From Planctomycetaceae bacterium (GTDB taxonomy: Bacteria > Planctomycetota > Phycisphaerae > Phycisphaerales > SM1A02): DNA of 36,262 nt. Shown in pieces: positions 559-34,605 of the stretch; positions within the stretch are counted from its first letter, which is position 1; every line of letters begins with the position of its first letter. Location: the NCBI GenBank assembly GCA_027483065.1, contig JAIXVI010000298.1, positions 1-36,262 of the forward strand, in the 5' to 3' direction. The notes under the pieces were generated by a model, which was not told where the DNA came from, did not search any database, and worked only from the letters and a program-made list of their open reading frames with translations. Position numbers and translations under genes: made by a program.

Positions 559-816
559 TTTGAGCGCTCGCAACGTACTTTGAGCGCTCGAGCGCGGCTC
601 TTGCCGCGCCCTCACTTTGGTGTGAGCCACGCGAAAGGGAGCCGCCGCAGCGGCGACCGCGAAGACAACAAGCGCTCGAGCGCGGCTCTTGCCGCGCCCT
701 CGCTCTGGCCAGCTCCCCTCGGAGTGAATCCTCGGGGGCTGAGATGCGCTTTGGAGCGCTGCCGAAGCTCCGCTTCAGATGCCCGCTTTCGCTCGCTTTG
801 GCGTGATTCACGCCAA
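559..816 (+). repeat. Dispersed repeat element, copy 1, filling the TonB/surE convergent gap
   Basis: It begins directly after the TAG stop of the TonB-like gene with two copies of TTTGAGCGCTCG (559-570 and 579-590). It contains two copies of a GCGCTCGAGCGCGGCTCTTG stretch that can fold as a GCGCGGC/GCCGCGC hairpin. Its distal part (about 760-816) matches the element at 26154-26372 when that element is read on the minus strand: both carry TCGCTCGCTTTGGCGTG preceded by a GAAGCT..GCTTCAG hairpin. The order of shared blocks is the same, so this is one family. The ORFs called here (542-829 minus, 580-1287 plus) are artefacts of the repeat. Confidence 0.8.
798..816. terminator. Perfect 8-bp inverted repeat over the surE stop codon
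   Basis: TTGGCGTG-ATT-CACGCCAA is a perfect palindrome with a 3-nt centre. The surE stop codon (808-810) lies inside it. It sits between two convergent genes and could stop transcription both ways, but neither side has a U-run, so a classical intrinsic terminator is not shown. It is also the end of repeat copy 1. Confidence 0.4.
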
Positions 817-1590
817 GCGGCGGCGCCACTCGTCGATGCGGTGGTAATCGGTGAGGTCGTACTGAAGCGGCGTCACCGTGATGAATCGCTCATGCAGCGC
901 TTCGACATCGGTGCCTTCCTTCGTGTGGCAGGACTCCATGCCGTTCCCGTTCGGCCAGTAGTACGGACGGCCGTCAGGTGCAACGCGACGCTCGTAATTG
1001 TCGATGCCCGCGGCGGTGTTCATCGTGACCACCTTGATCTTTGGCATCGGCGTGTCGGCCGCATGCGTGCGCGGCACGTTGATATTGATGACGTTGTGCG
1101 GATCGATCTTGTGCTTCAACACCTCGTCGATCGCATGTCGCGCGATTTCCGCGGCACGGCGCCAATGCGGCGCGCCGCCACCCATGTGGAGGCTCACCGC
1201 AATCGCCGGAACACCAAGAAACGCCGCTTCGACCGCAGCGCCCACCGTGCCCGAATAGATCACGTTGATTCCGACGTTCGCACCTGAGTTCATGCCCGAA
1301 ATCACGACATCCGGTCGCGTGCCCGCGCCAAAGAGATCCGGCCACAGCCGCCGCAATCCAAGCTTCACGCAGTCCGCCGGTCGCCCATCGACCGCGTACC
1401 CGCGCATCGATTCGTTGGGCGCGACTTCCTCAATCATCAGCGGCGTGTGAAAGGTGATGCCGTGACTCGTCGCGCTCTGCACATCTGCGGGCGCAACCGT
1501 CACCACTTCGCCCAAATCGCGGATCGCCCGATGGAGCGCTTCGATACCGGGTGCGTGAATGCCGTCGTCGTTGGTCAAGAGGATCCGCAT
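808..1590 (-). CDS. surE: SurE, 5'/3'-nucleotidase (survival protein)
   Basis: The product of 260 residues starts MRILLTNDDGIHAPG, the metal-binding N-terminus of SurE. It also has SGMNSGANVG, the second family signature, followed by GTVGAAVEAAFLGVPAIAVS. SurE family enzymes are cytoplasmic, divalent-metal-dependent phosphatases acting on nucleoside 5'- and 3'-monophosphates and short polyphosphate. The ORF track extends to 1905, but the extra upstream residues have no family match. The ATG at 1590 gives the normal length and has a TACACT hexamer 9 nt upstream, which supports it. The stop codon lies inside the palindrome that ends the repeat element. The gene is divergent from the glycosyltransferase gene and not in an operon. 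Confidence 0.95.
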   Translation of the reverse strand: MRILLTNDDGIHAPGIEALHRAIRDLGEVVTVAPADVQSATSHGITFHTPLMIEEVAPNESMRGYAVDGRPADCVKLGLRRLWPDLFGAGTRPDVVISGMNSGANVGINVIYSGTVGAAVEAAFLGVPAIAVSLHMGGGAPHWRRAAEIARHAIDEVLKHKIDPHNVININVPRTHAADTPMPKIKVVTMNTAAGIDNYERRVAPDGRPYYWPNGNGMESCHTKEGTDVEALHERFITVTPLQYDLTDYHRIDEWRRRLA

Positions 1591-25789: not shown

Positions 25790-25953
25790 TGGGGTACTCA
25801 GGGACGGAGGGTCGATGGTAACGCGCGGCCGCCGCTGCCGATGCGCGGTTTTGCGCGATTCGCGCGAGCGCGCGAGAGAGTGGGTTGCGAGTGCGCCAAC
25901 GCGAGCGCGGAGCGAGAGCGAAGCGCAAGAGGATGACACGCGGCTGCGCAAGA

Positions 25954-26087
25954 CGTCTCGTGTGGCATCACCTCTGGTGATGGCAAGACGTAGAAAGGAG
26001 GATTGCCCCGACGATTTCGCAAATCCACGGTTTACGGCCACGCAAGCCACTACCCCTGCTTCGCAGGGGGTAGTGCCACACGAGACG
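25954..26087. repeat. Structured palindromic element upstream of shc
   Basis: A 14-nt arm CGTCTCGTGTGGCA (25954-25967) is matched by its exact inverse TGCCACACGAGACG (26074-26087). Inside are a TCACC-TCT-GGTGA hairpin (25968-25980) and a longer one, CACTACCCCTGC-TTCG-CAGGGGGTAGTG (26048-26075), with one bulged base and a TTCG loop. The whole can fold into a closed multi-branch structure of about 134 nt. No transposase is nearby. It could be a small mobile/REP-like element or a structured leader; nothing here decides. The remaining gap from 25790 to 25953 and from 26088 to 26153 shows no gene. Confidence 0.7.
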
Positions 26088-26153
26088 TTCGTCGACCCCC
26101 ACGTCTACCGCTCAGGCTTCGCTGCGCTCCGCCTTCGGCAAGGTCCCATGTCA

Positions 26154-26372
26154 TCCACGCCAAAGCGAGCGAGAGCGGGCACCTGAAGCGAAGCTTCAGC
26201 AGCCCGCCAGTCGCGAGCGCTCAAACCACGTCGCGAGCGCCGAACCAACGCATCTCGGCCCGACGCGATTCACTCGCGGCGAGGCCGACGAAAGCGAGCG
26301 AAAGCGGCGGACGCGGCGAAGCCGCCCCGCCGCCAGTCGCGAGCGCTCAAACCACGTCGCGAGCGCTCAAAA
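26154..26372 (-). repeat. Dispersed repeat element, copy 2, with duplicated hairpin units
   Basis: Read on the minus strand it starts TTTTGAGCGCTCGCGACGTG, overlapping the TGA stop of the oxidoreductase gene, and ends in TCGCTCGCTTTGGCGTG, as in copy 1. It is internally duplicated: an identical 36-nt block occurs at 26205-26240 and 26331-26366. Each block is preceded by a two-tier hairpin with a GAA loop. Unit A pairs CTGAAGC/GCTTCAG inside GCGGGC/GCCCGC (26175-26207). Unit B pairs GCGGC/GCCGC inside GGCGG/CCGCC (26306-26334). The stems differ in sequence but keep pairing. Confidence 0.85.
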
Positions 26373-27611
26373 CTTATCCAACTCCCGAATCGGCACCGGC
26401 CGACGTTCGCGCGCGCTGCGGATCGCCGCTTCGAGCACGCACTGCGTCTTCAGCGCATCTTCAAAGTCCGGCATCGAAACCACCGGCGACCCGCCCGCCA
26501 CCATCGCGGAGATATCCGCGGCTTGGCTGATGAATCCGTGTTCGTAGCCAATCAAGTGCGCAGCGGGCCAGTAGTGACCGGCGTACGGATGCGATCCGTC
26601 GGTGCACATGATGCGGCTCCATCCACGCAACTTTGGATCGAGCGTGTGATCCCACCACTGCAGTTCGTTCATCCGCTCGAAATCGAACTTGAGCGAACCC
26701 TTCTCGCCGTTGATCTCGATGTTGTTGCGGTTCTGATTGCCGGTCGCCAAGCGCGTCGCTTCGAAACTCGCGACAGCGCCCTGCTTGAATCGCGCCAAGA
26801 AAAGCACCGCGTCATCGACCGTCGATTTGCCCGATTTCTTGCCGGAAGACGCGCCTTTCGCGCCCTTCCCTGAGATCTCGCCGCCAGCGTTTGCAACAAC
26901 TGCGCGCTCTTTCACGAACGTCTCTTCGATCGAACCAACGACTTCTGTGATTTCGTCGCCCGTGATGAATCGCGCCATATCGATGATGTGCGCGTTGAGA
27001 TCGCCGTGTGCGCCAGAACCCGCGAGATCACCTTGGAATCGCCACAAAAGCGGCGTGTCGGGCCCGCCCCAATCTTGGAGGTAACTCGCGCGCACGTGGA
27101 AGATGCGACCGAGGCGCCCTTCCTTCACCATGCGATGCGCAAGCGCGACCGCGGGGCAGCGGCGATAGTTGTACCAAACGAAGGTGCGCACACCCTTCTT
27201 CGCAGCGGCGCGCGCAGCGAGCACCATCTTCTTCGCATCAGCAAGCGTGCCTGCGAGTGGTTTCTCACACGCAACGTGCTTACCCGCCTCGAGGCACGCG
27301 ATGGACATCTCGGCGTGCAAGTGATTCGGCGTGGAAACGTCGACGAGTTCGACGTCGGGGTTCGTCAGAATGTCGCGCCAGTTCGTGGTCGCGTGTTCCC
27401 ATCCCCACTTCGCAGCGAAGGCGTTCGTCTCATCGGGATTGCGACCTGCGACGACCTTCATCGCGGGCGGACGGCGCAATTCAAAGAACTGCGCGCACTT
27501 CCCCCACGCCGTTGAGTGTGCACGACCCATGAACTTCGTTCCAATGAGCGCGACGCCGATTGGACCGGTGGTCTGCGTACGGACAGTCTTCTCGCGATCG
27601 TTCTTCGCCAT
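26367..27611 (-). CDS. Gfo/Idh/MocA-family NAD(P)-dependent oxidoreductase
   Basis: The 414-residue product has an N-terminal Rossmann fold (PIGVALIGTKFMGRAHSTAW), VDVSTPNHLHAEMSIACLEAGKHV and the family ACEKPLAGT with the catalytic-region EKP. The C-terminal dimerisation/substrate domain has GSGAHGDLNAHIIDMARFITG, with the usual GG(G/A)xxxDxGxH region read as GDLNAHIID. Family members oxidise or epimerise sugars and cyclitols; the substrate is unknown. A Gly/Lys/Ser insert (GEISGKGAKGASSGKKSGKS) breaks the C-terminal domain. ATG 27611, preceded 5 nt upstream by AGGATC, is preferred to the extended 27947 start. Its TGA stop is supplied by repeat copy 2. A second MocA-type gene is at the right edge. 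Confidence 0.92.
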   Translation of the reverse strand: MAKNDREKTVRTQTTGPIGVALIGTKFMGRAHSTAWGKCAQFFELRRPPAMKVVAGRNPDETNAFAAKWGWEHATTNWRDILTNPDVELVDVSTPNHLHAEMSIACLEAGKHVACEKPLAGTLADAKKMVLAARAAAKKGVRTFVWYNYRRCPAVALAHRMVKEGRLGRIFHVRASYLQDWGGPDTPLLWRFQGDLAGSGAHGDLNAHIIDMARFITGDEITEVVGSIEETFVKERAVVANAGGEISGKGAKGASSGKKSGKSTVDDAVLFLARFKQGAVASFEATRLATGNQNRNNIEINGEKGSLKFDFERMNELQWWDHTLDPKLRGWSRIMCTDGSHPYAGHYWPAAHLIGYEHGFISQAADISAMVAGGSPVVSMPDFEDALKTQCVLEAAIRSARERRPVPIRELDKF

Positions 27612-27717
27612 GGTTTGATCCTCGCAACCGTGCGCGCGGCGGTTCGCTGCATCTTCCTCGCACGGGACCGATATGCTACCGCCCCGCGTGCCACCTTCGG
27701 CCGCGTCAGGAGCCGAC
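27612..27717. promoter_or_regulatory. Divergent intergenic region with two Shine-Dalgarno sites
   Basis: The minus-strand GAGGATC (27617-27623) serves the oxidoreductase ATG at 27611. The plus-strand AGGAG (27708-27712) lies 5 nt before ATG 27718, which is why that ATG is chosen over 27673 for the repeat-protein gene. CCGATATGCTACC (27669-27681) could supply -10 elements on both strands (TATGCT plus, TAGCAT minus). Confidence 0.5.
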
Positions 27718-29088
27718 ATGCACGAATCGACCCCCTCTCGAGAACTCACCTCTCCGACCCACACCGCCTCGATGGCAGGCGATCCGGGGGCCACGTCGGG
27801 CTCGCACGCTGAAATCGCGCTCCTTCGACAGGAAGTCGCTCGCTTGCGCGGCGAAACGCGGTTTGCGCGCGTCCTTGGCGGGCTCGCTGCGGCAGCACTG
27901 GGCATCGGCCTCCTCGCGATGCGCGACCCGCAAGCCGCCACGGTCATTCAGACGAAGCGCCTTGAAATCGTCGACGAAAAGGGTCGTGTGACGATGGTCG
28001 CCACGTCGACGCCGCAAGGTGGCCGACTCGATCTTTGGGATGCGTCGGGCTCGAACACTGCGCGCCTCGGCGCAAACGATCTCGGCGGCGACTTCATTCT
28101 CTGGAACCGCGAAGGAAAGCCGGTCTTCGGAGCCTACGCGCAGATGAATGGCGGCCGCGCGGAGATCGGTACCTCGCTCGGCCGCGTCGGCGCGGTTGTC
28201 GAAGCGGGTCCGAACGGTGGACGCACGAGTCTTTACGATCCGAACGGCGATCCTGTGGTCGCGGCGGGCGCCTTCACCTCCGGCGGCGCGATTCGCGTGG
28301 CCGATGCGAAGAATGCTGATGCCGTCCTGATCGAAGCGACTGAAACAGGCGGCGGTGTCAGCGTGACGGCTCCTGATGGAGCTGTGTTCGGCCGACTTCG
28401 TGCAGGCGAAACCGGCGGCGAATTCGATCTCGCGTCGAAGTCAGGCGCGAATCGCGTCAACGCGAGTGCCAAGGACAGCGACGCTGCGGTCATCGCGCTT
28501 GGCGCCGCTGGCTCGAGCAAAATCGGTGGATCAAAGGTTGGCGGCGGTATCGACCTCCTCAACGAAAAGGGCGATCGGATCGTCTCGCTCGAATCGAACG
28601 AAGGCGGCGGACTGCTTGTGTGCCGCGCAGGTGGCGAGCGACCGGTTGCGTCGCTTGGCGCGAGTTCAAGCGGTACGCGCGGCGGCTTGCTGCAGGTCTA
28701 CAACGCGCAACAGAGCCCCGTCTTCGCCGCGGCTGTCACGAGCGACGGCGCCGGACGTCTCGCGATCGGCACCGCTGGTGGCGTCGCAACGCTCACCGCA
28801 GAAGCAGGCAAAGAAGATGGCGCCAGCATCAGCCTCGTCCGTGGCGGGAAGCGCGCACTCGCGTTCGTTGCTGCTGCGAATGGCGGCTTGATGAACATCT
28901 TCAGCGCGGCGGGTGCGCCGTCGGTTGTCGCCGGAAACGCCGATGATGCAAGTGGCGGCGTCGTACTACTTCGTTCTGCGGAAGGAAAGGACCTCGCGCT
29001 CTTGGGTGTTGACGACAAGGGCGGCGGCAACGTCGTCCTCTTCAACAAGGACGCGACCGAGCGCAAGACGCTCGCAGGTCCGCGCTGA
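27718..29088 (+). CDS. Membrane-anchored protein with 22-residue beta repeats
   Basis: The 456-residue product has a short cytoplasmic N-terminus, a coil (EIALLRQEVARLRGE), one membrane helix (VLGGLAAAALGIGLLAM) and a long outer part. From about residue 95 it is built of repeats that start with GG and have the pattern GGxhxhxxxxGxxhhxhxxxx. At least six successive units are exactly 22 residues (GGRLDLWD, GGDFILWN, GGRAEIGT, GGRTSLYD, GGAIRVAD, GGGVSVTA). More irregular units continue to the C-terminus. A beta-solenoid is expected. I do not recognise a named family or an enzyme site. It is divergent from the oxidoreductase gene. Confidence 0.8.
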   Translation: MHESTPSRELTSPTHTASMAGDPGATSGSHAEIALLRQEVARLRGETRFARVLGGLAAAALGIGLLAMRDPQAATVIQTKRLEIVDEKGRVTMVATSTPQGGRLDLWDASGSNTARLGANDLGGDFILWNREGKPVFGAYAQMNGGRAEIGTSLGRVGAVVEAGPNGGRTSLYDPNGDPVVAAGAFTSGGAIRVADAKNADAVLIEATETGGGVSVTAPDGAVFGRLRAGETGGEFDLASKSGANRVNASAKDSDAAVIALGAAGSSKIGGSKVGGGIDLLNEKGDRIVSLESNEGGGLLVCRAGGERPVASLGASSSGTRGGLLQVYNAQQSPVFAAAVTSDGAGRLAIGTAGGVATLTAEAGKEDGASISLVRGGKRALAFVAAANGGLMNIFSAAGAPSVVAGNADDASGGVVLLRSAEGKDLALLGVDDKGGGNVVLFNKDATERKTLAGPR

Positions 29089-34507: not shown

Positions 34508-34530
34508 TTCGGGCGGCACGCCCAGGTCGC

Positions 34531-34605
34531 CAACTCATCGCTCGCCAAACCATCGCTCGCCAACTCATCGCTCGCCAACTCATCGCTCGCCAACTCATCG
34601 CATGT
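34531..34605. repeat. 15-nt tandem repeat over the amidotransferase stop codon
   Basis: CAACTCATCGCTCGC occurs at 34531, 34561 and 34576, with a one/two-base variant at 34546 and a partial fifth copy at 34591-34605. The TGA stop of the minus-strand gene (34595-34597) lies in the last unit, where ACTCATCG is kept. There are no spacers, so it is not a CRISPR array. Confidence 0.9.

Follow-up and report, generated by a model that had tools for sequence, protein, structure and literature searches.

The array described here belongs to a mosaic family of palindromic repeats, REP/REPIN-like and restricted to a single planctomycete genus, which probably persists as DNA (we put this reading at about 60%). 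Copies of the element are dispersed, their stems covary, sites and modules turn over between relatives, and units directly follow stop codons, terminators or the 3′ ends of tRNAs in a fixed polarity. What is new about the family is its sequence and the absence of any known mobiliser; its design is familiar.

The window is the whole 36,262-nucleotide stretch of DNA that was analysed. Its relevant features are as follows.

26154..26372, minus strand: whole mosaic array; in the sense of the upstream gene, two R-boxes, hairpin B, L-box, M2 hairpin, two R-boxes, hairpin A, L-box
26164-26216: unit A, GCGGGC / CTGAAGC-GAA-GCTTCAG / GCCCGC with an AC/CA internal loop
26164..26176, plus strand: L-box of unit A, AGCGAGCGAGAGC, a flank conserved in all copies
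26175..26207, plus strand: variable hairpin A, GCGGGC-AC-CTGAAGC-GAA-GCTTCAG-CA-GCCCGC
26209..26242, plus strand: R-box region of unit A, AGTCGCGAGCGCTCAAACCACGTCGCGAGCGC..., second R-box copy degenerate
26252..26289, plus strand: M2 spacer hairpin, TCGGCC-CGACGCGA-TTCAC-TCGCGGCG-A-GGCCGA
26293-26342: unit B, GCGGCGG / GCGGC-GAA-GCCGC / CCGCCGC
26293..26305, plus strand: L-box of unit B, AGCGAGCGAAAGC, conserved flank
26304..26333, plus strand: variable hairpin B, GCGGCGG-AC-GCGGC-GAA-GCCGC-C-CCGCCGC
26335..26370, plus strand: two R-boxes of unit B; in mRNA sense, TTTTGAGCGCTCGCGACGTGGTTTGAGCGCTCGCGACT
26367..26369, minus strand: TGA stop of the Gfo/Idh/MocA gene, inside the first R-box
26367..27947, minus strand: Gfo/Idh/MocA oxidoreductase gene, upstream in the element's sense direction; its real start is probably farther inside this frame
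559..830, plus strand: copy 1 mosaic array, with R-boxes (561-592), GAGCGCGGC-TCTT-GCCGCG hairpins, the GCCGCCGCAGCGGCGACC end module, M2 and the copy 1 hairpin
752..805, minus strand: copy 1, L-box and hairpin CTGAAGC-GGA-GCTTCGG, right-hand box not intact

The sequence-only reading had described the array at 26154-26372 (its copy 2) as internally duplicated. Both hairpins fold where it placed them, and the flanking block that it took to be unchanged between units A and B is identical over 37 nt (26204-26240 and 26330-26366). Its third hairpin, in copy 1, is real (89% complementary over the 54 nt of 752-805), but the second pair is an uncompensated T.G and the right-hand box is missing. The copy 1 array (about 559-805) sits between converging gene ends, with one stop codon at 556-558 and the end of a SurE gene at 808. 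The 231-nt array folds much more stably than dinucleotide shuffles of it, with z −5.9 on one strand and −4.2 on the other as RNA, and z −7.0 as DNA. No Rfam family matched the window above its gathering score, and a test for intrinsic terminators found no T-tract after the array hairpin, which is followed in the sense direction by GCYYTYGCTCGC.

In the window's own genome (318 contigs, 3.69 Mb), a BLAST-type search with the element gave 55 matches, many of them at contig ends. At least weak matches to the element occur in 13 of the 16 genomes of the genus and in none of 25 genomes of other genera. A pattern with only the two flanking boxes fixed and the hairpin left free matched 51 copies here; across the genus it matched about 170, in 7 of the 16 genomes, compared with a single match for the reversed-pattern control. 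Run on 121 genomes of the family including 44 other genera, the flank pattern gave one match outside the genus, lacking the matching hairpin. Carriage by phages, plasmids or viral contigs was rejected, as the collections of each that were searched held no copy. The element occupies many contig ends of this genome (for example C249, C180, C102, C211 and C283) and breaks the short-read assemblies of these lake bacteria, so the copy numbers are underestimates. In public records the genus appears mostly as metagenome-assembled genomes (MAGs) under the labels Planctomycetaceae, Phycisphaera or uncultured bacterium; judging by isolate names, several come from lakes or ponds. One public MAG, titled Limnohabitans sp. 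MAG13 (L083 and L088; JASGCF010000000 records), matches genome G010 of this planctomycete genus, and the Limnohabitans name looks wrong.

Since copies were chosen by their flanks alone, their hairpins form an unbiased sample. The inner stems include CTGAAGC/GCTTCAG, CCGAGGC/GCCTCGG, CTGACGC/GCGTCAG, ATGAAGC/GCTTCAT, TTGAAGC/GCTTCAA, AAGAAGC/GCTTCTT, GTGAAGC/GCTTCAC, GCGAACC/GGTTCGC and GCGGC/GCCGC, and the outer stems GCGGGC/GCCCGC, GCGGCC/GGCCGC, GCCTGCGG/CCGCAGGC and GCGTCGC/GCGACGC. An alignment of 39 copies gives 741 pair cells, of which 99.1% are paired; changes on both sides occur at 9 of 19 pairs (2.8 in shuffles) and 32 cells are doubly changed (4.3 in shuffles, with none of 500 shuffles reaching the native value). 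These counts treat related copies as independent, which they are not, so a control with slid structures is the safer one; all slid structures fell far below the native covariation count. At the basal R..Y pair, which the search pattern left free, 91 units comprise 56 G-C, 28 A-T, 5 G-T and 2 A-C (Fisher P 4e-16). Chimeras joining arms from different copies fold worse than native hairpins (−16.2 versus −24.2 kcal/mol), and compensated variants of the M2 spacer hairpin, too, occur in other copies. Further copies and uncompensated stem changes had been proposed as the genome-wide check: copies are many and changes are nearly always compensated, and copy counts and covariation together bear out a dispersed, structured, REP-like element. 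The co-change originally read from units A and B is of another kind, as there one hairpin has replaced the other wholesale, a process that accounts for part of the hairpin diversity; true point compensation is found between other copies.

That stems stay paired had been taken as selection for a folded form. The pairing stands, but it can also be read in another way, because template switching between the arms creates and maintains hairpins and also keeps palindromes paired (PMC8794818). If one arm were repeatedly copied onto the other with no selection on the hairpin, double changes would be common and one-sided intermediates rare, as we observe. Against this, the flanks are conserved, and the internal mismatches (AC/CA and the RR/CAG loop) remain unpaired in most copies and have not been corrected. 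No inverted loops were found either (none of the reverse type), although loop inversion by template switching is also rare in the published study (PMC8794818). We regard purely mutational maintenance as possible, at clearly less than even odds.

The substitution pattern also bears on which molecule folds. G.U pairs make up only 3 of the 741 cells despite frequent double changes; mismatches fall about equally on both strands, and the few wobble events are symmetrical. A specifically RNA function is thus not supported by the pattern of substitution. Of 93 listed units, with many unrelated stems, 71 have a loop that reads R-N-A on one strand, and conserved GA/GA steps (GCGAGC..GCGAGC) are found on this same strand. 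Such steps are stable in DNA. The type of loop and the type of mismatch together point to a structure formed at the DNA level by the strand antisense to the upstream gene.

The positional analysis covered 106 distinct sites. In 72 of 81 cases the gene next to the R-box has its 3′ end facing the element (genes were predicted with a self-trained caller, so that starts are approximate); in 7 of the 9 exceptions, what ends there is a tRNA or an intrinsic terminator. Of the 72 gene-facing ends, 28 lie no more than 7 nt from the stop codon and 54 no more than 54 nt from it, and in 22 the stop codon is itself part of the R-box. Copies between tandem genes favour one polarity by 20 to 2 (P 1.2e-4), and no cluster has units on both strands. 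Copies also lie about 4-6 nt 3′ of tRNA-Ser, tRNA-Leu, tRNA-His and a tRNA-Gly. Near one tRNA-Ser(TGA) in this genome, a partial 5′ half of tRNA-Ser, resembling an integration scar, lies about 200 nt upstream of the intact gene (L277, G000:C263). A different post-gene repeat, GGTGCCGAGAGGCTGGCGGGTACAAGCGGGTACGAGCGGGT...CGGCACCG with sliding GCGGGTAC repeats, was seen in two relatives (L187, L189 and L252; G010 and G002).

This placement, flush behind mRNAs, tRNAs and tmRNA and in a fixed direction, is what would be expected of a 3′-end RNA element whose transcript hairpins act as a terminator, an exonuclease block or an end-processing signal. The strong RNA folding fits, as does site S10, where an ordinary terminator in the close relative G011 stands in the position of the array of the present genome (G000). 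However, a random 202-kb sample of this genome (20 contigs) held about four element clusters at 140 genes; with only about 3% of genes carrying the element, a general role as terminator was rejected. Some copies lie downstream of complete T-tract terminators, including one after the terminator of the tmRNA, and the element has no U-tract of its own. Close relatives differ in occupancy, and the near absence of G.U pairs and of strand bias among mismatches argues in the same direction. We consider this explanation unlikely.

Orthologous comparison of 28 site groups demonstrated that array modules are swapped in place and that close relatives have gained or lost sites. The flanking genes of G000 and G011 are mostly 95-100% identical, yet G011 has no copy at S10 or T2, where G000 has one, and the composition of the array differs at S2, T1, T10 and T15. 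At T1, hairpin A in G000 corresponds to hairpin B in the close relative, and at T10 to a third hairpin type. The S7 copy is cut down to a bare R-box in G011; G005 and G010 have no box there at all, so insertion before the split of G000 and G011 followed by loss in G011 is the simplest course, and the difference could be a deletion. Genome G013 carries a copy at none of 21 orthologous sites. Not every difference is a clean insertion, since at T20 the element of G005 replaces a native 110-nt spacer ahead of a tRNA-Ser-like sequence; the compared sites included no clean insertion marked by a defined target or a duplication. Downstream of the S6 terminator, neighbouring genes are not syntenic between the genomes compared.

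In its layout the element most resembles the REPINs of Pseudomonas and others, which have conserved ends and a spacer that needs only length and the capacity to form a hairpin, with compensatory changes common (PMC3116915). Shared features are two conserved arms, a compensating spacer, extragenic location, many copies and no gene of its own. In contrast to REPINs, the two arms do not clearly form an inverted pair derived from a single REP (the ends pair only in part, GCRA/TYGC and AGCG/CGCT, with unpaired steps between), conserved unpaired steps lie within the stem, hairpin classes are swapped wholesale at one locus and no RAYT is linked. Like BIMEs, whose REPs alternate in orientation (PMC2817692), the element forms arrays in which palindromic units are combined with linker motifs; the sequences are unrelated, and here the R-box, variable hairpin and L-box follow head-to-tail. 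REPs tagged with GTAG or CGTC adjoin gene 3′ ends within 20 bp, mostly of convergent or unidirectional pairs and rarely between divergent genes, and their termini may supply stop codons (PMC3733652). The present element shares these traits, although it is untagged and provides TGA or TAA through TTTGAGCGC. At the stem foot of 128 units we counted no GTAG and 4 CGTC on the right, and 1 CTAC and 19 GACG on the left, the GACG matches being part of the M2 linker. With IS200/IS605-type ends and HUH single-strand transposition the element shares an imperfect stem-loop with a strand-specific loop, and it may be a possible substrate, although no such transposase carries element ends and no target motif is established. 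It thus has the imperfect palindrome, the many extragenic copies and the 3′-end proximity with stop-codon supply of a REP, while no copies flank a RAYT gene as expected of REPINs; we name it REP-like rather than REP because it has neither a GTAG/CGTC tag nor a RAYT linked to any copy.

REPs are usually explained by a RAYT transposase. Y1-type transposases are present in 13 of the 16 genomes of the genus, and the REPIN-like layout and location (PMC3116915, PMC3733652) would suit a true REP/REPIN mobilised by the genus's RAYT-like enzymes. A RAYT link had been proposed and was rejected: no box of the element lies within about 1.5 kb of any of the genus's 20 RAYT-like loci, no RAYT was detected in G011 with its 35 copies, and G007 has four RAYT loci and no copies. 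The stem foot also lacks the expected tags. The single RAYT-like gene of the present genome (L031 1237-1869, G000:C266) scores below the NCBIfam cut-off and adjoins a different palindrome, GGCACGTGCCATGCAGTGCC.., which is probably that gene's own REP. Mobilisation by RAYT is therefore improbable. An RNA-mediated, retroposon-like spread appending the element to transcript 3′ ends would account for copies at the ends of every kind of transcript, but every copy-rich genome lacks a reverse transcriptase (PF00078) and neither an A-tract nor a target duplication was seen, so this mobiliser was rejected and the idea is extremely unlikely.

The reading that we prefer, a repeat family persisting as DNA, could work as follows. 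In each unit, two conserved boxes enclose a hairpin that can vary in sequence provided that it stays paired, and arrays combine such units with other hairpin modules. The element would persist as DNA, spreading as a non-autonomous passenger of a putative enzyme acting on single-stranded DNA, by recombination between copies, or both. The strand that folds would be antisense to the upstream gene, with its purine GNA-type loops and its tandem G.A mismatches. Insertions may survive mainly behind genes, since they do not break genes there, and effects on mRNA ends, if any, would be secondary; tolerance of insertions at gene ends does not on its own explain the fixed polarity. A bolder version, in which a putative enzyme sets a mobile hairpin, independent of RAYT and reverse transcriptase, one-way at the 3′ ends of transcription units of all kinds (mRNA, tRNA, tmRNA, terminators), with exchange of hairpin cassettes remodelling gene ends, is speculative and rather doubtful. 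A REPIN-like family with no linked RAYT makes hairpin maintenance, whether as an enzyme substrate, through RNA function or by template switching, testable within one well-sampled genus, and the element reshapes the 3′ ends and stop codons of genes from one close relative to the next.

Other repeats were seen in the window. A second dispersed repeat at 25940-26095, with about 25-30 copies (48 pieces) in this genome, is REPIN/MITE-like, with hairpins CATCACC-TCT-GGTGATG and CCCCTGC-TTC-GCAGGGG, inverted TGTGGCA ends and a variable middle; it frequently adjoins R-box/L-box arrays. At 34527-34601 there is a 15-nt tandem repeat in five copies, TCGCCAACTCATCGC.
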